This document shows, in pieces, positions 6,052 through 21,866 of a stretch of DNA of 21,866 nt. The stretch is from positions 1-21,866 of IMG/VR virus record IMGVR_UViG_3300025128_000394. One strand, 5' to 3'. Numbering within the stretch: position 1 is the first letter of the stretch; each line of letters starts with the position of its first letter. The notes under the pieces are model-generated. The model was not told the origin of the DNA. It ran no database searches and saw only the letters and a list, made by a program, of their open reading frames with translations. A program made the translations under genes and the position numbers. Source of the stretch: a virus.

Positions 6052-6279
6052 TTACTTCTTTTTCGCAGCGCTCTTCTTGGCCGGAGCCTTCTTAGCTGCT
6101 GGTGCCTTCTTAGCTGCTGGTGCCTTCTTGGGGGCAGGCTTAGCGGCAGCAGCAGCAGCGGCAGCGGCATTCATTGCATCGATGTGCAAGAACAGCTTGT
6201 TGATGGTGCCCCGCATGTCGGGCGTCTTGGTTTGAAGTGACCTCTTAAGGTCACGAAGTTCGGTATCAGAAAGCAGCAT
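6052..6279 (-). CDS. histone H1-like Lys/Ala/Pro-rich protein
   Basis: The 75-residue protein starts at 6279 with an excellent AGGAGG ribosome site. Residues 1-36 form a predicted amphipathic helical head (LSDTELRDLKRSLQ). Residues 37-75 are Ala, Lys and Pro only, apart from one Ser, with AAKKAP-type repeats ending in KKK, like the tails of eukaryotic H1 and bacterial H1-like proteins. Such tails bind DNA without sequence preference. It overlaps the end of the HTH repressor candidate by 14 bases, so the two form one operon. A role in compacting phage or host DNA, or modulating repression, is inferred. A purely structural coincidence is possible. Confidence 0.75.
   Translation of the reverse strand: MLLSDTELRDLKRSLQTKTPDMRGTINKLFLHIDAMNAAAAAAAAAKPAPKKAPAAKKAPAAKKAPAKKSAAKKK
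6086..6132 (-). repeat. 18-bp tandem repeat coding the AAKKAP tail
   Basis: The 18-base unit GCCTTCTTAGCTGCTGGT (+ strand) is present twice exactly (6086-6103 and 6104-6121), followed by a partial third copy (6122-6129). Each unit encodes six residues of the basic tail. Near-identical units point to recent expansion by slippage or unequal exchange. Confidence 0.75.
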
Positions 6280-9113: not shown

Positions 9114-9186
9114 TGGGGTGTAGCGCAACTGGCAGCGCATCCGGTTGTTACCCGGAAGGTTGGTGGTTCGAGTCCACCCGCCCCAG
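9114..9186 (+). tRNA. tRNA-Asn(GTT)
   Basis: The 73 bases fold as a complete cloverleaf: acceptor TGGGGTG/CGCCCCA with one G-U pair, D stem GCGC/GCGC with GG in the loop, anticodon stem TCCGG/CCGGA with loop TTGTTAC (anticodon GTT), variable loop AGGTT, T stem GGTGG/CCACC with loop TTCGAGT, discriminator G. The 3' end is followed by CCT, so CCA is not encoded and must be added by host enzyme. G73 and anticodon GTT agree with bacterial tRNA-Asn. It begins one base after the previous stop codon, so it must be processed from the operon transcript unless it has a hidden promoter. Confidence 0.95.
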
Positions 9187-9200
9187 CCTTTGGATGGACC

Positions 9201-10631: not shown

Positions 10632-10882
10632 GAGTCCCTGTTTTCGATCATCTTAGCGATGTCTTTCTTGAGCTTGTCTTCTTCTTTGCTCTTGATGATC
10701 GTGTCGAGCTTTGCGGTTTGCTCAGTCAACTGAGTACCAATCGTGTCCGTCATGCGGTCAATCCGCTTCTGGGCAAACCAGTTGGTGACAATCAAGTAGA
10801 TGGCAAAGATGCCCATCGCTCCATACTCCAGCAGTGCGGTGACCACGCTGCTGGTAGTGTCGGATACGACCTGCTCTTCCAT
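10628..10882 (-). CDS. holin-like small membrane protein
   Basis: The 84-residue protein has one membrane helix (about 17-37, LLEYGAMGIFAIYLIVTNWFA) and a long charged C-terminal helix with coiled-coil character (about 38-82). Its ATG overlaps the lysin stop (TAATG), a coupling typical of holin/lysin pairs. A single-pass holin or an antiholin is the likely role. A spanin-like function is less likely as the C-terminal domain follows a basic patch (QKR) and so probably stays in the cytoplasm. Confidence 0.65.
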   Translation of the reverse strand: MEEQVVSDTTSSVVTALLEYGAMGIFAIYLIVTNWFAQKRIDRMTDTIGTQLTEQTAKLDTIIKSKEEDKLKKDIAKMIENRDS

Positions 10883-11463
10883 TAGACCTGGGGCTCGTCA
10901 ATCAAGGTGTAGGTGAACTGCGGACCATAGGTCTCAGCAGACTTCTCAACAATAGCCATGAAGCACGCGAAGTCATCGGCGTTTGCCCAAACCTGGCAGC
11001 CCGCTGACCACTTGTCTACTTCAGTGGAGTGGGAGCCTGCCTTGTGTAGATTGATGCCGAAGTACCCATCCTGCTCAGTGGCTGGATCCATGTCGAGGAT
11101 GTCGTCCTTGTTGTCGTCCCGGTACACCCGGACGCGGCCACCGGTTTGAACCAGGGCCTTGTACTTACCTCGATGAAGGCCAATCTTGTATGAGCCTCTG
11201 TACTGGTCCGCCACAAGAATCGCCGTCCCGTTGACGTTCATTGGATGCTCTCGCCAGTAGGTGCCTGGGTCGGTTGTGCAGTGCCAGGTACGAGTGACCC
11301 ATCCGTGTTCATCCTTGTAGACCACGTACATATAATCGTTGAACTCGTTGGCGCTATCTTCAGGTGTACGAACGCCGATGATGTTCAGGTTGTAAAGCCC
11401 GTTCTCGAATACTGCGTGGCCAAGAGATTCGACATAGTCAAGGATTTGAGGCCTCATCTGCAA
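10882..11463 (-). CDS. lysin, L,D-transpeptidase (YkuD)-fold-like
   Basis: The 193-residue protein has no signal peptide. GINLHKAG (136-143) followed by SAGCQVW (153-159) matches the H...(S/T)-x-G-C active-site pattern of YkuD-like enzymes, with H140 and C156 as candidate catalytic residues. Phage proteins of this type are taken to be peptidoglycan-degrading lysins. It overlaps the upstream membrane gene by 10 bases and the downstream holin-like gene by one. The alternative is a cell-wall-modifying enzyme rather than a hydrolase, because true YkuD enzymes are transpeptidases and the motif here lacks the usual His before Gly-Cys. Confidence 0.75.
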   Translation of the reverse strand: MQMRPQILDYVESLGHAVFENGLYNLNIIGVRTPEDSANEFNDYMYVVYKDEHGWVTRTWHCTTDPGTYWREHPMNVNGTAILVADQYRGSYKIGLHRGKYKALVQTGGRVRVYRDDNKDDILDMDPATEQDGYFGINLHKAGSHSTEVDKWSAGCQVWANADDFACFMAIVEKSAETYGPQFTYTLIDEPQV

Positions 11464-11744
11464 CGTGCTCCTGTCGCCTGACAGATGGCCGACTGGTTGG
11501 TCATTAGCGTCTTCAGGTCACGCGACATCTCATTCTGCTGAGTCTCAATCTTTTCAATACGAGTCTCGCCAGCCGTGTGACCCTCAGCCGCAACGTGAAT
11601 CGTTAGCTCACTCTCCTGGCCATCAAGCGTCTCTTGGATCTTGGTCACGTCCGAAGACATGGCCTCAAGATGCCACCACCCACCACCAGCAAGGAACACT
11701 ACGGTAGCGACCCATATGATCAGCTTTGTGTCGATGTCTTTCAT
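11454..11744 (-). CDS. single-pass membrane protein, i-spanin-like
   Basis: The 96-residue protein has a short charged N-terminus, a membrane helix (about 8-25, LIIWVATVVFLAGGGWW) and a periplasm-side helical region (about 30-82) with heptad-like spacing, ending CQATGARC. N-in, C-out topology with a coiled coil next to a lysin is the layout of Rz-type i-spanins. No partner lipoprotein with a lipobox is seen, so a holin or other lysis accessory is also possible. It shares ATGA with the preceding gene. Confidence 0.6.
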   Translation of the reverse strand: MKDIDTKLIIWVATVVFLAGGGWWHLEAMSSDVTKIQETLDGQESELTIHVAAEGHTAGETRIEKIETQQNEMSRDLKTLMTNQSAICQATGARCR

Positions 11745-12262
11745 TTAAAGCCCCCCGAGCCGTATGAATAAGCAGCACTGAGGCCAACAGCAACCACGCC
11801 AACCGTCACAAGTGTCTCCAGTCTACCAAACCACCGCTGTGTTCCTGGCCTTTCAAGGAATGGGGGAGGTGCTGATTCCTCCTTTAATTTCTTCTTATAC
11901 CATTCAAGGTCCATCTCCAAAGCCTTGGTATCTACTGCATACTGGGCAGCGACGGACTCTGCCCACTTCTCGGTAGCAAGGAGGTCCGCGTAGTCTGAAA
12001 GAGGCACAAGAACACCAGAGCATGATGCGACACCACGGGGCAAAATCAAAACGGGAGAAGGCGCCTCTCCTTTTCGAACTGGAATGTTTTTCGCGCATTG
12101 CCCGGCAATAGGCTGAGGTGCTGCGGGACGCTCGATTAAGTCTCCGGCCCTCGCAACTCCTGGGCCGAGAAGTAGGTACAAAATGATGGCAACAAATATC
12201 CCTACAGTTGCCACGGCAACCAGCTTGGCGCAGACGCCAGCTTGCTTATCAAGCCAACTCAT
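11741..12262 (-). CDS. two-helix membrane protein of the lysis cluster
   Basis: The 173-residue protein has an N-terminal hydrophobic segment (about 13-37) ending LLLGPGVARAGD, which could be a signal peptide (ARA-GD) or an anchor. A periplasm-type domain with Cys near 56 and 81 follows, then a helical stretch (about 97-130) and a second hydrophobic segment near the C-terminus (about 149-166). An N-terminal export signal plus C-terminal membrane segment recalls unimolecular spanins, but no lipobox is at the N-terminus, so this is only an analogy. It shares ATGA with both adjacent genes. Confidence 0.6.
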   Translation of the reverse strand: MSWLDKQAGVCAKLVAVATVGIFVAIILYLLLGPGVARAGDLIERPAAPQPIAGQCAKNIPVRKGEAPSPVLILPRGVASCSGVLVPLSDYADLLATEKWAESVAAQYAVDTKALEMDLEWYKKKLKEESAPPPFLERPGTQRWFGRLETLVTVGVVAVGLSAAYSYGSGGFK

Positions 12263-12510
12263 CGTCGGTTCCTTGAGTTTCCCTTGTCAGCCAAGTCTCC
12301 GGCGGGGTCTTTCCCTTTCAGCCGCTTCCAGACACCAGAGACTTCTTCTTGAAATGTCTGCTGAATCGTATCGTTTGCTGCATCAGCACTGCGATTGGGG
12401 GCAGGGCCGTCATCTTCCATCTTTCGCTTTTTCTGCGTGATGGCTCGGCCAATAAAGAAAGCAACAATAGCTGCCCCAAGAACTGACAATATGGTTGAAA
12501 TATGCTCCAT
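12259..12510 (-). CDS. small single-pass membrane protein
   Basis: The 83-residue protein has a membrane helix (about 5-24, STILSVLGAAIVAFFIGRAI), a basic stop-transfer patch (QKKRK) and a charged helical tail (about 47-83), giving an N-out, C-in orientation. It overlaps the upstream stop by one base (TGATG) and lacks its own strong ribosome site, so it is coupled. Holin or antiholin is possible; no family recognised. Confidence 0.6.
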   Translation of the reverse strand: MEHISTILSVLGAAIVAFFIGRAITQKKRKMEDDGPAPNRSADAANDTIQQTFQEEVSGVWKRLKGKDPAGDLADKGNSRNRR

Positions 12511-12893
12511 CAGCTTGAGACTATTCGAACAACGACATCGTATGCAGGAGACGCAGCCGAATTGCCACCAGTTGATTCAGGGCCCGTCACACACCACGTA
12601 GTAAGCCCAACGCTGTAGGGCACACCAAACGGCATCGCGTACTCTGAGATGCTGCCAGCGGCTGCGTAGAATATCCAATCAGGGTGAGTGGTTCCTGGTG
12701 TCGCGGCTGCGGCATCAGCAATCTTAAGATAGACCGGCCCCGCATTTTTGGAGTTGTCGACCTTGATTAAGAAAAACTCACCAGCAGTAACACCAGTGAC
12801 ACTAAGGCTCGCGTTAGCGATAGCATCTAAATATGAAACAAGACGACCAGCAAGCACTCTTTGATCGGATGTCTTGGTAAGCTCGGCAGCCAT
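12510..12893 (-). CDS. paralogue D of the four-member beta-rich structural family
   Basis: The 127-residue soluble protein has GGTGA upstream. It matches its neighbours in a shared pattern: FFLIKVDNSKNAGPVYLKIA (41-60), then PGTTHPDWIFYAAAG (67-81), MPFGVPYSVGLTTWCVT (87-103) and a final beta-strand VVVRIVSS. PGTTxPD is shared with the copy at 13867-14244. The beta-rich sequence, lack of signals and position among tail genes suggest a virion surface or fibre-associated protein. Decoration, fibre-tip or adaptor roles are all possible. Confidence 0.7.
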   Translation of the reverse strand: MAAELTKTSDQRVLAGRLVSYLDAIANASLSVTGVTAGEFFLIKVDNSKNAGPVYLKIADAAAATPGTTHPDWIFYAAAGSISEYAMPFGVPYSVGLTTWCVTGPESTGGNSAASPAYDVVVRIVSS

Positions 12894-12898
12894 TCAGA

Positions 12899-13261
12899 TC
12901 ACCCTATCAATAGCGTTACTGTAGTTTTTGAATCTGGATTTTCAGTATCAAGGGGATTTGCGTTTTTTGTTGCCCAAAAACTTAGATTCGTGAACGTGAA
13001 TCCGCTTGGGATTTCATAAATCTCAGTAGCCCCCTTGGGGCATTTAAAGATTAGCTGAGGAAGAGAGCTTCCAATAACGGCAGACCCGCCGTCAAATATC
13101 TTCACATAAGAATCGGACTTTACATTGCCCTCAGTGATAACGGTCAACAGCACGCCGCCGACATCACCAATGTTGGCGTTTACTGTGGCTTTTGCGTCAT
13201 CCTCTTTGATGACCTTGTGAGAAACCGCCGTTCCCTGAAATCTCGTGCTGTGTAGCGTCAT
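12899..13261 (-). CDS. paralogue C of the four-member beta-rich structural family
   Basis: The 120-residue member shows LLTVITEGNVKSDSYVKIFD, LPQLIFKCPKGATEIYEIPS and GFTFTNLSFWATKNAN in the same order and spacing as the other copies, and ends TVTLLIG. It begins nine bases after the small membrane gene and lacks a strong ribosome site, so it may depend on read-through translation. Sequence identity between members is low by eye, meaning old duplications or strong diversification. Confidence 0.7.
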   Translation of the reverse strand: MTLHSTRFQGTAVSHKVIKEDDAKATVNANIGDVGGVLLTVITEGNVKSDSYVKIFDGGSAVIGSSLPQLIFKCPKGATEIYEIPSGFTFTNLSFWATKNANPLDTENPDSKTTVTLLIG

Positions 13262-13270
13262 TCATTGAGC

Positions 13271-13459
13271 CTACTTCTTCAAGAACGACATCGCCTTTTC
13301 AGCGGAGTCGCCAGCAATGTATGCGAGGCCAAGGTAAAGCCACTGTGTAGAGTCCAGCATCCCCGCAGCCAGCAGGCCTGTGCCAAGAGCAAGGACCGTA
13401 ATCCGACGCCAGGACATTCGGGTTTGAGAGCAGAAAAGCGACTTAATAAAATTCTTCAT
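13271..13459 (-). CDS. 62-aa membrane protein between paralogues
   Basis: The 62-residue protein has a basic N-terminus (MKNFIKSLFCSQTRMSWRR) and two hydrophobic stretches (about 20-35 and 39-50, ITVLALGTGLLAAGML and QWLYLGLAYIAG), ending DSAEKAMSFLKK. GGAGAG is its ribosome site. Size and topology fit a small holin or phage membrane protein. Its position inside the structural array is unusual, since the other membrane genes sit together beyond 12510. Confidence 0.65.
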   Translation of the reverse strand: MKNFIKSLFCSQTRMSWRRITVLALGTGLLAAGMLDSTQWLYLGLAYIAGDSAEKAMSFLKK

Positions 13460-13470
13460 GATTCTCTCCG

Positions 13471-13857
13471 TCAGGTTCCAAGAAGCTTAGCAATAACAGT
13501 GCTGCTTGGGTTGTTCTGGGTTTCAGTGGTTCCGTCGTAGCTGGCTTGAGTCTGGGTAACCCAAAAGGTGACGCCGGATCCGTATGTTGATCCAGTGTCG
13601 CAAACATAAGTTACCTTCTCCCCGGCAGGGGCGTAGAAGACCGACTCTGCCTTTACACTCTGGGACGCTCCAGAAGTAGCGTTGTGAATCTTCAGGTAGT
13701 TGACCTGGCTCGCGTTGGCCGTGTTGTCGATTTCAACAGCATATACGGTGCTTGCGCCGCCAAATACGTCAAGTTCAGACGTGCCATTCGCGGCTGCGTC
13801 TGTGATCAATGTGCCCGCCAGGGCATCGGCAACAGTTCCAATAGTTACGTTGGCCAT
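13471..13857 (-). CDS. paralogue B of the four-member beta-rich structural family
   Basis: The 128-residue member starts behind GAGGTG. VYAVEIDNTANASQVNYLKI (39-58), SVFYAPAGEKVTYVCDTGS and GVTFWVTQTQASYDG align with the pattern of the other three, including the asparagine-rich turn before YLKI and the FW near the third strand. It ends with a STVIAKLLG strand. An unusually high Ala/Thr/Gly/Ser content suits phage surface proteins. Confidence 0.7.
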   Translation of the reverse strand: MANVTIGTVADALAGTLITDAAANGTSELDVFGGASTVYAVEIDNTANASQVNYLKIHNATSGASQSVKAESVFYAPAGEKVTYVCDTGSTYGSGVTFWVTQTQASYDGTTETQNNPSSTVIAKLLGT

Positions 13858-13866
13858 CTTTACACC

Positions 13867-14244
13867 TCAAGAAGTAACGAATGTGACATTTACATTTCCA
13901 CCACTGATTGCGCCAGTAGATGAAACACCAGGGTCGCTTACCATCCAATAGCTAAGCTTGGTAAACGTGATTCCGTCAGGCATCTTCCATCTAACATTGG
14001 AGCTTGTTGGGCAGAAAACAACGATGTCTGGATTGGTGGTGCCTGGAACAACTCCGCTATCAACGTCGGTTAGAGTGATCTTCAGAAAAGCCACAGTAGA
14101 CGATGAGCCGTTCTCTACATCAATAGAGTACAGCTTGCCATTGTCTTGGGTGACATCAGTAGTGGCTGTAACAGGGGCAGCGGTATCTACGACAATCTTG
14201 TATGTAAGTTTGTCGTCCTCGAATCGTGCTACAGAAAGTGCCAT
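13867..14244 (-). CDS. paralogue A of the four-member beta-rich structural family
   Basis: The 125-residue protein begins behind GAGGA. LYSIDVENGSSSTVAFLKIT, PGTTNPDIVVFCPTSSN, MPDGITFTKLSYWMVSDPG and the end NVNVTFVTS provide the clearest version of the family pattern. MPDGITFTKLSYW matches IPSGFTFTNLSFW of the copy at 12899 at most positions. First of the array in transcription order, directly downstream of the Asp-box protein. Possibly its trimer or attachment partner; inference from neighbourhood only. Confidence 0.7.
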   Translation of the reverse strand: MALSVARFEDDKLTYKIVVDTAAPVTATTDVTQDNGKLYSIDVENGSSSTVAFLKITLTDVDSGVVPGTTNPDIVVFCPTSSNVRWKMPDGITFTKLSYWMVSDPGVSSTGAISGGNVNVTFVTS

Positions 14245-14255
14245 TAGTCAGTCCT

Positions 14256-15413
14256 CTACAAAGGAAGTAGTACATTAGCGGCAACTGCGTCGAGGTTCTC
14301 GACGTTGTTGCCCCCAGTCGGGAATCTGAGATTAGTGTTGGAGCCGCCATCTTGCACGCCGGTTTGCTCAGCCCATGATCCCGCAGCGCCATCGTTGGTA
14401 TTTATTGACACACGGCCAGAGTCATGGACTACCACCCATGTTCCATTGCCATCAGTGGCAAGTCCACGGGCATCTGTGCGGGGTAGATCATCATTATCAC
14501 TAGTGTAGTAAGTCCAGTCCTGGCCACCATCTGTGCTTCTTGAGACGTTATCCCCAACCACCATCATAACCGTGGAGCCTGCTGCCGCGATGTGCCGGTT
14601 TGAGTGTGCGACCAGATTCTGATTCTGGAGAGCGCCGCCATCCAATGTTGCCACGGTCCAGCTTGACGTATCAGCCGCCGTGGCATGGATAATCCGAGTC
14701 TGACCACTATCGCGGGCAAAGACTACCCACCGGGATGTCCCACTGTGAGTGCTGTACGCGATGCCGCGAATCTTAAAGCCATCATCAGATAGGGGTGAAT
14801 CAGCAGTGTCGTAGACCTTTGCCCACGATGCCCCGTTATCAGTAGACTTAAAGATCTGGTCGTGGTTGTCGCACATCCAAGTGCCAGCGCCATCAGATGC
14901 CAAATGTCGGACATCTACCCCGTTGGTGAACCAACCCGTAGCCCCGGACATGTCTACTGCTGACCAGCTAGCACCATCAGTGGACCGCCATAGCGTCCCG
15001 TTTTGGCCTGCTGCCATCCAAACATTGTTGCCCCAAAGAACTGCATAGAGCTTCCCTGCTGCAACGTTAGTGTCAGACCACCCCTGGGTATTGGTTGGAT
15101 CTGACGAGTACCGAATCTCACGGTTACCGTTTGAGTCTACGGCAACCCAAAGTGGATCTCCTGACCCATCCTTACCGTAGCCAACTGCGTTGTAATCGGT
15201 GGTCCCCATGTTTGAGGAGACGTACCCCGTCCAGGCATTCAAATCTGAATGGGCTGCCGTGGCTACACAACCATCAGCACCAACAATGCACCAGAGTGAT
15301 GCACCAGACGCAGGGGCGTCACAACCATTTACTTTAAGGCTGGCTTTTGCTACACCGCTGAAAGATGCAATGTCAGCAATAGCTACACCATTTATGGCTG
15401 CGATATCAGGCAT
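14256..15413 (-). CDS. Asp-box (BNR) beta-propeller tail protein
   Basis: The 385-residue protein carries sialidase-type Asp boxes S-x-D-x-G-x-x-W: STDGASW (144-150), STDNGASW (190-197), STDGGQDW (293-300), and weaker ones near 103-112 and 339-347, each followed by a repeat with GxWxxx and beta-strands. A 4-5 bladed or larger propeller is likely. Sialidase catalytic residues (Arg triad, FRIP) are not evident, so glycan or receptor binding is more likely than hydrolysis. The N-terminus (MPDIAAINGVAIADIASFSG) is a repeat-like strand found at the virion-attachment end of phage tail proteins. The ATG overlaps the preceding stop (TAATG). Confidence 0.8.
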   Translation of the reverse strand: MPDIAAINGVAIADIASFSGVAKASLKVNGCDAPASGASLWCIVGADGCVATAAHSDLNAWTGYVSSNMGTTDYNAVGYGKDGSGDPLWVAVDSNGNREIRYSSDPTNTQGWSDTNVAAGKLYAVLWGNNVWMAAGQNGTLWRSTDGASWSAVDMSGATGWFTNGVDVRHLASDGAGTWMCDNHDQIFKSTDNGASWAKVYDTADSPLSDDGFKIRGIAYSTHSGTSRWVVFARDSGQTRIIHATAADTSSWTVATLDGGALQNQNLVAHSNRHIAAAGSTVMMVVGDNVSRSTDGGQDWTYYTSDNDDLPRTDARGLATDGNGTWVVVHDSGRVSINTNDGAAGSWAEQTGVQDGGSNTNLRFPTGGNNVENLDAVAANVLLPL

Positions 15414-16426
15414 TAAGCAACCTCGATGACATCACCAGATGGGCTGAAGAAAACCAGATCAGCAGTCACAGCCCAGCCAATGACTTGTACAAAGTCTCCA
15501 CTCGTATCCGGGGCAGCTTGCTCTGGTACATTCTCAGAAGATGTCTCAGCTTCAGGTGTGAAGAGAGCCCCGCCGATTGTGTAGGAGGGGAACGACGCAG
15601 CATCCCGCAAGAAGCCGTGCATTAGGAACTTTCCAGCAGCATCTGCTGAGATGTCCTCCGCTGCCATAGCCACACAACGGGAAGTTGCAGATGCAGTGGC
15701 AACAGCCTTCCACATCTTAGAATCGGCAGCTTTGAAGTAAACCACCTCTCCACGTGTCAGTGCTTCCCCTGCTGTGAAGACTGCGGTAATGCCCGAAACA
15801 GACTCGTCTGCGATTGATGAGTTGATTCCAAGTGCGCCCATCACATCGACGCCAGCATCAGGGCCTACAAGAATCGCAGGTGTAGTCCCATGCGTTGAGC
15901 CGACGCCAATCTCAAGAGTGTTGGTGCCATCATCCAGGCCGACGCGGAAGTCCACCTCATTACCATCAAACACCAGCATGGTGTCTTCTGTACCAGCGTC
16001 ACCGATGGTAACTGTGGGCGTGGTTCCAGTGACAACCAGATCACCAGTAAACGTGGCCTTCTGTGCCTCATCAATGGTCAGCGCAGCAACAAGGCCAGAG
16101 CCACTGTTCGTGGAAACGATGTACTTGCCCTTAACGTCATCTGATGAGCCACTGTGGCTGCCCTCGACCTGGGCCAAGGCTGCGTCTGCGTGGTCCTCAA
16201 AGATGATCTTCGACTCACAGCCACCCTCAGTGTTCTCAGCGGTTGAGTTCTGCAACGTGACGGCAGTCGTAGTACTGCTTAGCTGAAGCGTTGTGCCTGG
16301 AGCAGCCGTACCAATACCAAGCCGATTGTTGGTCTCATCGACAACAAGCGTGGTTCCATCGACCTCAAGGTCAGTAAGGATGAGCTTCTGACCACCCCCA
16401 GTAAAGCTTGAATTGAAGCTGGGCAT
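15413..16426 (-). CDS. tail-fibre-like structural protein
   Basis: The 337-residue protein begins behind AGGAG. LVVDETNNRLGIGTAAPGTT (27-46) is the short beta-repeat common in phage tail fibres. A long beta-rich middle (about 130-215, TATFTGDLVVTGTTPTVTIG) follows, then a C-terminal domain (about 215-337) with AGEALTRGEVVYFKAADSKM and repeated hydrophobic strands, similar to surface domains of phage fibre or head-decoration proteins. No S74-type autocleavage chaperone motif is visible. Coupled to the propeller gene, so the two may form one fibre. Confidence 0.75.
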   Translation of the reverse strand: MPSFNSSFTGGGQKLILTDLEVDGTTLVVDETNNRLGIGTAAPGTTLQLSSTTTAVTLQNSTAENTEGGCESKIIFEDHADAALAQVEGSHSGSSDDVKGKYIVSTNSGSGLVAALTIDEAQKATFTGDLVVTGTTPTVTIGDAGTEDTMLVFDGNEVDFRVGLDDGTNTLEIGVGSTHGTTPAILVGPDAGVDVMGALGINSSIADESVSGITAVFTAGEALTRGEVVYFKAADSKMWKAVATASATSRCVAMAAEDISADAAGKFLMHGFLRDAASFPSYTIGGALFTPEAETSSENVPEQAAPDTSGDFVQVIGWAVTADLVFFSPSGDVIEVA

Positions 16427-17543: not shown

Positions 17544-17563
17544 ATACTGAGCTTAATCAGTAT
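17544..17563 (-). other. hairpin with the giant gene's stop codon in its loop
   Basis: ATACTGA pairs with TCAGTAT over 7 bp around a 6-base loop. The TAA of the giant gene (17553-17555) lies in the loop. No T-run follows on the - strand, so termination is unlikely. It could modulate coupling to the next gene. Confidence 0.35.
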
Positions 17564-20500
17564 CGGGAGTTTCCTTTTCTTTGGTCTCTCTTTCAATTTC
17601 ATATCGGGCATGCTTGAGCATTTCAGCCACTCGTGACTCATAGGTATCAACATACCTACCCTTAACTCCCATCAAACCAGCAAACTCAAGAAAGGAAAAG
17701 TCTGTAGGGTCACCTTCGTAAAAGTCTGGACGAGGAAGCATTGTGTCTCTTCGCCAGTCATCTTTACTTAGGCCGACCGGTATCGCGGGCTCAGAAGTCG
17801 GAACATCAAGCCACCCCGCATCTTCAAGAGGATGTCGTGCGTGCTCCCTAAAGAGGGCAGAAAGCTCAACCAGCGTCTCTACAGGGCCAAGATTGGCGCG
17901 GTCCATGGCCGTGATGGTGTGCATAGAGCGCCCGAAGCCAGGAGTCTGCAACATGTTTCGGAAAAACCACCACGCTTCGCCGTTCATTGCTTTGAACTGA
18001 TCGCGGCCCGGCACATCTTCATAGACCTTGTTCTTGACGGGAACCTTCTGAATCTCCAAAAGTTGGTATAGCTGGCCACCAGTCAGGTTGAAATCCAACT
18101 CAATGAACCAACCGGGCACCACGTTGTTTCGCTTCAGGTCGTACCCATAAAAGAAGTCCTTCTCGCCAGCCATGACAAACGGGAACTGAACCCACGGAGT
18201 AAACCGAGACACCAATCCCCTTGCGCCCTCTTGCCCTCGTTCAGAATGCATAAGGAACGGCGCTTGCCCAAGATCCGTAACGACATTCAACACATCCTCG
18301 AAAGGCAAGATTGGCGCCACAAAAGCAAGCTGACGATTGTAGTTACCAGTCCAATAGGCATCCTTCAATGAGACCATCATCCGAGACTTAAGGTAGTCAT
18401 CGAGAATTACCTCAGGATCTTCCGGGTCAAGAACCATCCGCTGAGAACCACGCACCAAGCGCATCTGGGCAATGATCCGGTGAGGGTTCCGCAACATCGT
18501 ATCCCAGAACAGGTCGAGATTCTTCCTCTGGTACGAGTAGAACATGACGAACCAGCGAAGCTTCTTACGCTCAAACTCGGTCAGCGCAGAGTAATCAAAG
18601 CCAGCCTTTCTGGAGATTTCCGCAGCAGCAGATGGCGACCTGCCCTTAGCCAACTCATCTACAAAGATGCTGACTCGGAAATAGTTATCAACGGCGGTTG
18701 CAACCTCGACAAGGTTTCCCTGCCACCACTTAGGGAAACGACGCATCCAGCCCATAAACTTGGGCATCTTGTCCTCAAGGTCTTTAGCCAACGCTTGTGT
18801 TGTTTCAGCCTGAATATAACTGGACTTCATCCCCTCCCTGATTGCCAGATGAGCGACCATATCATCTGTATAAATCATGCCATTCTTAGTGAATAGAGCG
18901 GCGGAATGTGGTGTGTACCCGCCCTCTTTCCACATTCTCGCAACAACCGATCCGACCATGTCAGGACGAACACCAAAGTGCGCCAGGTCAATCGCGCTAT
19001 ATGTCCTAAACGCAGACACGGGAGCCTTCACCAAGTACTTGGTGGCAGCAAATGCTCCCTGGGTCTGGTAAGCCTGAAAGAACGCGCCAAGAGTCACGCC
19101 AGCGTAGTACGCAGAATTTGGCATACCAATGCCCGTGGTCACCCCCATCTTGATCCGCGAGGCCGTGACCGGGTTCAGGTCCATAAGAGTATCGACAGCT
19201 TGACCAAGCTTCATTTGAATAAATGTCTTCGGGCGCTGCTTTGTCGGCTGGTCCAGCGCCACGTTGGTTCGCTGTGATTTGATCGTCCGAGTTCTGCCGC
19301 GAGTCCACGCCTGACCAATAGACGCCGCACGGTCTACTGCGTCCTCAATCTCTTTCGTCAGCATCAAAGGCACAAGAGCTTCGGAACCATCCGGCATAAC
19401 ATGCCGCTCCCACTTGCCTTTGCCAAGCTTAAAGCCCCACTCTGCCAAGAGGTCATGCGCCCTGGTGTAGGCAATCTGGTCTCTCCAGCCAACACCCCAC
19501 CGGCCAGGACCGCCATCATCAGGCATGTCGTGAATCGCGTACATGCTGCGCGGTGGAGCGGCAGGCTTTTTATGAATTTCGCCAGTCTCCTTGACCCTCT
19601 GCATCGACGCACCCCAGGTCATCTCTTTGTTGAGATAGTACGCGACCCGGTCAACGAATCCATCCCGGTCCAACGATGTGCCTGGACCAAACTTTTGATG
19701 CCTCGTCAACTTTCTGGCATCCATCGTTACGCCATATTCAGCGAGATTTCGAGACAGATTTCCAATGATCTCATTGGCCCTCATTCGGGCAATCATTTCA
19801 AGTGTGGCGACGGCCTGGCTGTATTCAGGAATTGCTGTCGGGTCTGCACCAACTGCGCGGCCTTCACCGGCAGCCCAATCGAACATCGATTTAAAGTCAC
19901 CTTTATAGAACCACTGGTAGAGCATCTGGTATTCGATGTCATGACGCTCAATCAAAATCGACTTGTCTGTGGTCCCCTCAAGAGACATGAGAATCTCTCG
20001 GGCGCGCTGTTTCACCAGTTCCTTTCGAGACCACAATCCATGGTGAATCTCACGAACAGCATCACCAAGCGCATACAAGTCGCCATCAGCAAGGTCTTCA
20101 AGTGGAGTTCGCTCATACGTCCGCAAAATTCGGAGCGCAGCCCGCTCGTGGTCAGTCAGGCCCTTGCCGTTATGAAGGAGCCCCTGGATAGCATCAAGCC
20201 GACTGTAAAGCTCCATGTGAGTGAGTTGCATGACCTCATCACCGGAATGGATCTCACCACGCTCCATCCGACCAAGTCGACGGGCATCAGCCTCCAGCAC
20301 GCCACTAAATCTATCAACCATTTCAAAAAGCTGAGAGGTCTGGCCTGGGTTCACAGGAGCGTTCAGCTTGCCGATCATGCTCCGATATACCGCTTGATAG
20401 CTTGTGGCATCATCAACTCCGACCGCAAGGTCAGCCATCTGAAGAATCCACCGGTCGATGCCATTTAGTTCTCGGACACCTGCCTCAGTCAGATCACGCA

Positions 20501-21866
20501 CGACAGGCGCAATATAGTCATCATCCCCAAACTTAGGCACAACGAAGCGGTCCTTAAAGTTTAGCTTCATCTCCTCCAGGCGCTTGCTTTTTGAAATCAC
20601 ATGATTTGCTGCAGTTTTGATTCCATTTACAAAAGCAAATGCAAGGTTTGGTGAGATTTGTTCTGCGTATTTTGTTGCACGAGAAGCTACGCCAGCCTCT
20701 ACATCTATTAGAACCTCGGCAATCTTGTTGTACTGCTTTACAGTTACAACTTCAAAAGCAAACCTTGGGTCGAAAAACTCCTTTGGCAAAATGTCAGCCA
20801 AAGGCTCAGAAGCAAGCTCAAGAACCAGGGTCTTAAGGCCTGCCGCTTGAGGGGCATCGAGAACAACAACTCCCTCAGTCAACATGACGTTGTCGGCTCC
20901 CCAGAATTGCTGGGCAACATCTGTAGGGACAACCTCTCCCTTCTGGTAGACCTTTAGATTTTTTGGCTGAGTACCAATAGCCTCCGCAACGCGGGTGCGA
21001 ATCGAGTTCTGAATGCGCTTCATTCTCTTCAATGGCACAAATGTGCGAAGCGTCGGACGGACCCACTCCTCACCGATAATCCCTTTCTTCCAGTGCTCTG
21101 TCGCAACATAGGCAAGGGCCTTGTGCATGATCTCAACGGCATCAACTTCACCACCAACTGAGCGCCGACGAGTAGCCCACTCATGTGCAGCCGGGTCTGG
21201 GCTAATATCCTTCCAGTAGACTTCTTCTTTCAAGCCGAGAGCGCTGCGGACATGCTGCCGATTAAGGTCAATCGCTGATGCACTTTTAGCCCGTCCAGCC
21301 TTCTTGACTGCCTCGGCTTCTATTCGAGCGGCAGCAGTAGCCTCAACATTAACAATCGGATGCCGCTTGGCCATGACGGAGTGGGTGACCTCTTGAGCGT
21401 ATGGTCTCGCTGTAGATTCTGGTCTTAGCCACTGGTCCCACAACCGCCTGACATCCTTTGGAAGTGTGGGGTCTTTGCCTCTAAGGACTCGCCACGCTTC
21501 TTTGATGTTCCAGAAAAGCTGTTGGAAAAATCTCTGAACTGCACCGTTGGGGCTATACCGAACGCGCATGTAGTGCATGAATGCATCCGCAACCTGCTCC
21601 TCACCAATGTCAGTCAACCGAACAGTGCCGTCTGGAGACGCCTCATGGTCGAAGTGTCGAGCGAGAGTGCCCATCCACTCATCTCCCATGATTGCAGAAA
21701 CAAGGTGACCAGACTCGTGCCAGAGTGTGTTGAGGTCACCATTTCGGAACAGGGCAACGACGTACTTAGCTGAGACGGGATCCCACTCGAAATATCCGAG
21801 AGCCTCGCCCTCACCCATCATGTAGCGGGGCTTGGGTTCGGGGGCGCGGGGGGCAGCCTCTTCCAC
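17553..21866 (-). CDS. giant virion-type protein with zincin motif (partial)
   Basis: At least 1,437 codons are visible; the frame is open at the window edge, so the true start probably lies beyond (a GTG happens to occupy the last three bases). LWHESGHLVSAIM carries HExxH (visible residues 50-54), followed by EEQVADAF (89-96) with a candidate third zinc ligand, as in gluzincin-like peptidase domains. The middle is helical and charged. The C-terminal part (about 950-1250: GMPNSAYYAGVTLGAFFQAY, KAGFDYSALTEFERKKLRWF, MLRNPHRIIAQM) resembles, from memory, large internal-virion and polyvalent phage proteins. The likely role is an ejected or capsid-internal protein with a peptidase or wall-acting domain; activity is not proven. 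Confidence 0.75.
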   Translation of the reverse strand: MEEAAPRAPEPKPRYMMGEGEALGYFEWDPVSAKYVVALFRNGDLNTLWHESGHLVSAIMGDEWMGTLARHFDHEASPDGTVRLTDIGEEQVADAFMHYMRVRYSPNGAVQRFFQQLFWNIKEAWRVLRGKDPTLPKDVRRLWDQWLRPESTARPYAQEVTHSVMAKRHPIVNVEATAAARIEAEAVKKAGRAKSASAIDLNRQHVRSALGLKEEVYWKDISPDPAAHEWATRRRSVGGEVDAVEIMHKALAYVATEHWKKGIIGEEWVRPTLRTFVPLKRMKRIQNSIRTRVAEAIGTQPKNLKVYQKGEVVPTDVAQQFWGADNVMLTEGVVVLDAPQAAGLKTLVLELASEPLADILPKEFFDPRFAFEVVTVKQYNKIAEVLIDVEAGVASRATKYAEQISPNLAFAFVNGIKTAANHVISKSKRLEEMKLNFKDRFVVPKFGDDDYIAPVVRDLTEAGVRELNGIDRWILQMADLAVGVDDATSYQAVYRSMIGKLNAPVNPGQTSQLFEMVDRFSGVLEADARRLGRMERGEIHSGDEVMQLTHMELYSRLDAIQGLLHNGKGLTDHERAALRILRTYERTPLEDLADGDLYALGDAVREIHHGLWSRKELVKQRAREILMSLEGTTDKSILIERHDIEYQMLYQWFYKGDFKSMFDWAAGEGRAVGADPTAIPEYSQAVATLEMIARMRANEIIGNLSRNLAEYGVTMDARKLTRHQKFGPGTSLDRDGFVDRVAYYLNKEMTWGASMQRVKETGEIHKKPAAPPRSMYAIHDMPDDGGPGRWGVGWRDQIAYTRAHDLLAEWGFKLGKGKWERHVMPDGSEALVPLMLTKEIEDAVDRAASIGQAWTRGRTRTIKSQRTNVALDQPTKQRPKTFIQMKLGQAVDTLMDLNPVTASRIKMGVTTGIGMPNSAYYAGVTLGAFFQAYQTQGAFAATKYLVKAPVSAFRTYSAIDLAHFGVRPDMVGSVVARMWKEGGYTPHSAALFTKNGMIYTDDMVAHLAIREGMKSSYIQAETTQALAKDLEDKMPKFMGWMRRFPKWWQGNLVEVATAVDNYFRVSIFVDELAKGRSPSAAAEISRKAGFDYSALTEFERKKLRWFVMFYSYQRKNLDLFWDTMLRNPHRIIAQMRLVRGSQRMVLDPEDPEVILDDYLKSRMMVSLKDAYWTGNYNRQLAFVAPILPFEDVLNVVTDLGQAPFLMHSERGQEGARGLVSRFTPWVQFPFVMAGEKDFFYGYDLKRNNVVPGWFIELDFNLTGGQLYQLLEIQKVPVKNKVYEDVPGRDQFKAMNGEAWWFFRNMLQTPGFGRSMHTITAMDRANLGPVETLVELSALFREHARHPLEDAGWLDVPTSEPAIPVGLSKDDWRRDTMLPRPDFYEGDPTDFSFLEFAGLMGVKGRYVDTYESRVAEMLKHARYEIERETKEKETPDTD

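Follow-up and report, generated by a model that had tools for sequence, protein, structure and literature searches.

The array described here belongs to a marine phage and lies on a virus record of 21,866 bases that is probably fragmentary and was analysed at its full length (the window). Four intact genes for proteins of 120–128 aa are present on the minus strand where the sequence-only reading had placed them (Table 1). Copies 1 and 2 are separated by 9 nt and copies 3 and 4 by 5 nt, and the 62-residue membrane gene reported inside the array is real and separates copies 2 and 3. Its product is, as a guess, a possible holin. The 62-aa protein is 74–81% identical in relatives including L012 and L013, despite far more diverged adjoining genes. 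The copies had also been said to follow directly on an Asp-box propeller gene, and a 385-aa gene with such motifs, recognised by eye, does lie upstream; its library matches are weak (phrog_8700, E 1.5e-4; Pfam BNR, E 7.8). Fibre-like genes are also found upstream. In the window, the array adjoins tail-type and lysis genes and not a capsid gene, the head module being outside the window.

Table 1. Genes of the array and its neighbours in the window, with the basis of each assignment.
Feature	Position	Strand	Basis
Endolysin, downstream of array	10882..11463	-	phrog_33083, E 2e-16
Three small membrane-type genes (83, 173, 96 aa), downstream of array	11454..12510	-	weak Rz-spanin matches for two of them
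Copy 4, type B', 127 aa	12510..12893	-	ORF; tree; profile comparison
Copy 3, type A', 120 aa	12899..13261	-	ORF; tree; same predicted fold, pLDDT 84.0 (A-only alignment)
Membrane-type protein, 62 aa, separating the pairs	13271..13459	-	ORF; comparison with two-copy phage L012
Copy 2, type B, 128 aa	13471..13857	-	ORF; tree; jelly-roll-like model, pLDDT 87.7
Copy 1, type A, 125 aa	13867..14244	-	ORF; tree (A-type clade, shared with copy 3 and the first gene of two-copy phages)
Asp-box-like propeller, 385 aa, adjacent upstream of array	14256..15413	-	motifs by eye; absent in L009 relative (G003)

Relatedness of the four proteins was assessed by the all-against-all profile comparison that had been proposed for them. 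A small profile was built for each copy from its orthologues in close relatives. All six pairs were positive, from E 5.5e-5 to 1.9e-15 (the others being 4.7e-6, 2.5e-13, 1.5e-12 and 3.2e-7). Column-reversed profiles gave E 0.16–0.84 in 12 comparisons, and other proteins from the same phages gave E 0.034–0.89 in 20. As the reversed and unrelated controls reach at best E ~0.03, the similarity of the copies is not due to chance, and their scores are better than those of other proteins from these phages. The copies align end to end with 23–31% identity to copy 1 and have in common the LKI/VKI strand, the Gly of the P-G-x-x-(F/Y) box and a Trp, in agreement with the shared low-identity pattern noted before. 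A family HMM detected all four at E 2e-30 to 1e-34, the copies being also seeds of that HMM. The profile comparisons indicate that the four copies share common descent.

Related loci were collected in one scan of viral contigs with the copy-2 profile, which yielded 70. The number of adjacent family members detected by HMM at these 70 viral loci was 1, 2 or 4, and three were found at no locus. Where at least 1.5 kb was available on both sides, one copy was present at 6 loci, two copies at 31 and four copies at 10; these are counts of contigs, some of them near-identical, and not of independent events. Copy 4 is present in L004. The predicted variation of copy number between related phages is therefore observed (1, 2 or 4 locally, and 6 in one whole record described below).

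In a tree of 120 family members, copies 1 and 3 fall into one clade (30 rows, support 99/93) together with the first genes of two-copy phages, and copies 2 and 4 into the other part of the tree with the second genes of those phages. Odd or even position in the array required 1 change on this tree for the four-copy arrays against a null mean of 13.4 (0 of 2000 swaps as low), and 7 changes for all pairs against a null mean of 31.3, the null being generated by swapping position labels within pairs. Since this null treats pairs as independent and related phages are not, the size of the effect outweighs the swap count. From the split of the tree by position, the array is read as A-B-TM-A'-B', where all four genes match the family profile and occur as adjacent A then B. 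The topology thus indicates one two-gene unit that has been duplicated (A-B, A'-B') and not four independent paralogues; of the earlier description as four tandem paralogues, the homology stands and the independence does not. The A and B labels are uncertain beyond the four-copy lineage and the two-copy phages closest to it, because the deep branches are weak. In the two-copy phage L012 the 62-aa membrane-type gene comes after the first A-B pair (A-B-TM), as if a second pair was added behind this arrangement.

For copies 1, 2 and 4, the tree joins each with its positional counterpart from a second four-copy lineage (supports 99/95, 97/78 and 99/94), the join of copy 3 being unsupported. Because these copies group by position, the A-B duplication is probably older than the split of the two phage lineages, between which identity is about 34% for copy 1 and 39% for copy 4. 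Tandem duplication of small genes is common, and the array could represent redundancy, its copies kept by chance or dosage without any paired function. This we consider very improbable, since orthologues of copies 1, 2 and 4 remain recognisable across the two lineages at such low identity and odd copy numbers above one do not occur. The organisation as two A-B pairs, with no three-copy locus and with copies 1, 2 and 4 holding their positions, also argues against an exchangeable, diversified host-range set as had been suggested.

Structures of two copies were predicted with AlphaFold2, copy 2 from an alignment of 75 relatives and copy 3 from one of 30 A-type rows only, copy 1 among them. Both models have seven strands (DSSP) in identical order and match largely the same entries of a viral model library; the hits in this library include an RSK1 entry (155 aa). 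The predicted fold of copies 2 and 3 is a jelly-roll-like beta-sandwich, and the expectation of a common fold is borne out for these two. Solved structures among the matches included the KHP40 cement protein, Ena pilins and the cores of plant HDT and nucleoplasmin; every solved match had Z < 8, so that the common beta-sandwich alone may explain them. The top matches, nucleoplasmin-type cores (plant HDT, nucleophosmin) and Ena endospore pilins (Z about 6–7.7), have the same general beta-sandwich but are cellular proteins of 4–15% identity, with Z within the range of common arrangements. For the trimeric cement protein of phage KHP40, one of the best-matching solved structures, Z was 7.3 and 7.0, too low to tell a true relative from a common arrangement. 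Cement proteins of BPP-1 and GP4 were not seen among the structural matches listed, nor were XepA and YomS (C2-like beta-sandwich pentamers); this is uninformative either way and decides nothing.

Sequence searches were carried out with members of the family. None of 75 diverse members matched Pfam or PHROGs at E 0.01, although the family occurs in many viral contigs, and no significant match to a characterised cement protein was obtained in PDB sequences, Pfam or PHROGs. The GP4 tail fibre chain 8jov gave a sub-threshold sequence match (E 0.08 and 0.015); this is not significant, and the match was rejected. Among annotated phages, one close relative (Virus Rctr197k) was found, and a distant set was reached through the Synechococcus phage S-SRP01; query P0001 had no match among annotated phages, query P0003 alone found nothing in viral contigs, and a DNA search with the array region gave no match. 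Two scans of bacterial and archaeal genomes returned no family relative, and hence no provirus or host is known. Every annotated member seen is a hypothetical protein, and no description of the domain family was found in the open-access papers searched.

Some members are the C-terminal domain of larger phage proteins of ~260–290 aa (Synechococcus S-SRP01 QPD06456, Arthrobacter Tweety19 gp1, Caulobacter KSC gp046, S2B gp004c). The HMM assigns these to the family (E 4e-7 to 6e-15), and they have the VKFY...GTDxP motif, but they are single copy, carry an extra N-terminal region, are all annotated as hypothetical and occur in mixed neighbourhoods.

The gene neighbourhoods of the relatives were compared. 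In the T4-like L041/L046, the family gene comes immediately after the gene for a T4-type major capsid protein (phrog_138, E 2e-70); in L027 it lies between the portal (phrog_156) and the major head protein (phrog_9953), and in L076 it adjoins the terminase large subunit. In the cultured cyanopodovirus S-SRP01, the family domain (HMM 46 bits, E 2.6e-13 at database size 1000) forms the C-terminal end of a 291-aa protein whose gene stands between those for capsid assembly and capsid. A collagen-like Gly-X-Y gene is found directly before the family-domain gene of S-SRP01 (L085 25495–26052), between the scaffold and capsid genes. Tail, packaging or lysis neighbourhoods are seen in the lineage of the window and in PBR31, DB virus 2, Funsized, KSC, S2B and DSL-LC07. 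The distant relative is located after tail tubular B in Xanthomonas PBR31 and between fibre and spike genes in Octadecabacter DB virus 2, and a weak match (E 0.0014) lies between minor tail genes in Mycobacterium Funsized.

The 75-kb record G001 of the close relative L007 contains six family members. Its four-gene array is at 21.1–22.9 kb, and a further A-B pair is at 62.8–63.6 kb (corresponding to L081 6798–7559). Downstream of this third pair, and all encoded on the late strand, are the terminase large subunit (phrog_2, E 1.9e-32), the major head protein (phrog_9953, E 1.7e-24) and, by a weak match, a portal-like protein (phrog_156, E 0.0034). A-B pairs are present in the same packaging and head setting in L105 and L106 (6001–6760); in copy A'' L105 and G001 do not differ, and both may come from one virus. 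A junction of two phages in G001 was considered and rejected, as its gene list shows only a single gene each for terminase, portal-like protein and major capsid protein, all on one late strand. The six-member record may still arise from an assembly error, but the third pair recurs in the separate contigs L105 and L106. The 71.7-kb record G007 of the second four-copy lineage has only four members, with terminase- and capsid-like genes recognised by eye.

The steady pairing of A with B suggests that both proteins work together on the particle. We propose that the A and B products would assemble jointly as a hetero-oligomer on the particle exterior, as virion-surface accessory proteins, most likely in capsid decoration or as head-fibre subunits, and put the chance of this at about even. 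The A'-B' pair would form a separate assembly of its own at a different site, and some relatives have a third pair in addition. From the gene data we infer presence in the virion, and with it the label of virion protein for the four copies, as well as a capsid site, differing roles of the pairs and contact between A and B, for which co-inheritance of the two is the sole indication. The earlier suggestion of a hetero-oligomer is thereby kept as a possibility, consistent with the paired organisation.

Jelly-roll cement proteins on an HK97-type capsid are established in BPP-1 (PMC3863775), and the cement trimers of GP4 have been described as Ig-like, their topology resembling that of BPP-1 and KHP30 (PMC9698820). 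Like Bbp16 of BPP-1 (140 aa) and the cement proteins of Helicobacter phages KHP30/KHP40, the copies are small stand-alone proteins of similar size with a predicted jelly-roll-like fold, and some of their relatives adjoin the capsid gene. The jelly-roll fold of such cement proteins has eight strands; seven are called in the models. The differences are that no sequence similarity was found, and that the BPP-1 and KHP cement proteins are single-gene homo-oligomers whereas here A-B pairs occur in up to three sets, with a putative location on the capsid.

As the main alternative, the proteins could be tail or tail-fibre subunits. A and B would then build a ring of jelly-rolls, a collar or a tip that contacts the receptor, close to the short tail and possibly holding fibres. 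The array lies after the propeller and before lysis genes, and the distant relatives in PBR31, DB virus 2 and Funsized are among tail genes. With respect to L007, conservation is lower in the second pair than in the first (68% against 81–88%), as is often the case for surface-contacting proteins; the 8jov match would point the same way were it significant. Against this stand the relatives whose gene comes after that of a T4-type major capsid protein or is flanked by those of portal and major capsid protein, and the absence of the propeller in one relative without change in the array. A tail role is thus possible, if doubtful. Capsid decoration is favoured because of the head neighbourhoods, the jelly-roll-like fold and the known jelly-roll cement proteins. 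Of the fibre, decoration or adaptor subunits proposed originally, the head-gene neighbourhoods favour decoration, and the tail neighbourhoods of distant relatives leave room for a tail role.

The relative without the propeller is L009 (record G003, 41.7 kb, partial genome), where the gene is absent from the entire record and other fibre-like genes occupy its position. Copies 1 and 2 of this phage are 88 and 81% identical to those of the window, and copies 3 and 4 are 62 and 53% identical. Since copies 1 and 2 are kept at this level without a propeller, at least the first pair is not matched to it, which argues against a dedicated receptor-adaptor set. The propeller appears to be a swappable module, missing in G003 while the flanking genes are kept.

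A function in lysis was also weighed. XepA and YomS of Bacillus prophages are beta-sandwich pentamers of lytic cassettes (PMC6834076), and the copies, as phage proteins with predicted beta-sandwich domains beside lysis genes, may resemble them. Lysis genes are directly downstream of the array and a membrane-type gene is within it, so similar pentamers could act with these neighbours. The relatives in head modules of T4-like, podovirus-like and cyanophage genomes, and the third pair near terminase and capsid genes, do not fit such a role, which we likewise regard as very improbable.

Capsid decoration by A-B hetero-oligomers would differ from what is known, as jelly-roll decoration proteins are mostly single-gene homo-oligomers. 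If true, a co-inherited A-B pair present as 2, 4 or 6 genes would provide hetero-oligomeric surface proteins with site specialisation. In a bolder version, which we think unlikely, one virion would carry up to three paralogous jelly-roll heteromers (A-B, A'-B', A''-B''), each at a different particle site, as a modular surface coat made from a two-gene unit that is paired in unrelated phage groups. The family is widespread and unnamed, and its members are probably virus-surface proteins. The domain family is already in deposited genomes; the paired and multiplied organisation is the new part, provided that the virion role is right.

Other features of the window were also recorded. A giant virion-type protein is represented at 17553–21866 by its C-terminal 1437 aa; the ORF runs off the end of the window and, judging by the relative G003, would be much longer. 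A 337-aa protein at 15413–16426 has a sub-threshold match to Phage_cement_2 (PF09956, E 0.015). A tRNA-Asn (gtt) is located at 9114–9188. An Ala/Lys/Pro-rich KKAPAKKAPAKK protein resembling a histone H1 tail is encoded at 6052–6279 on the minus strand, and a similar ORF is present in L084 (1111–1374).
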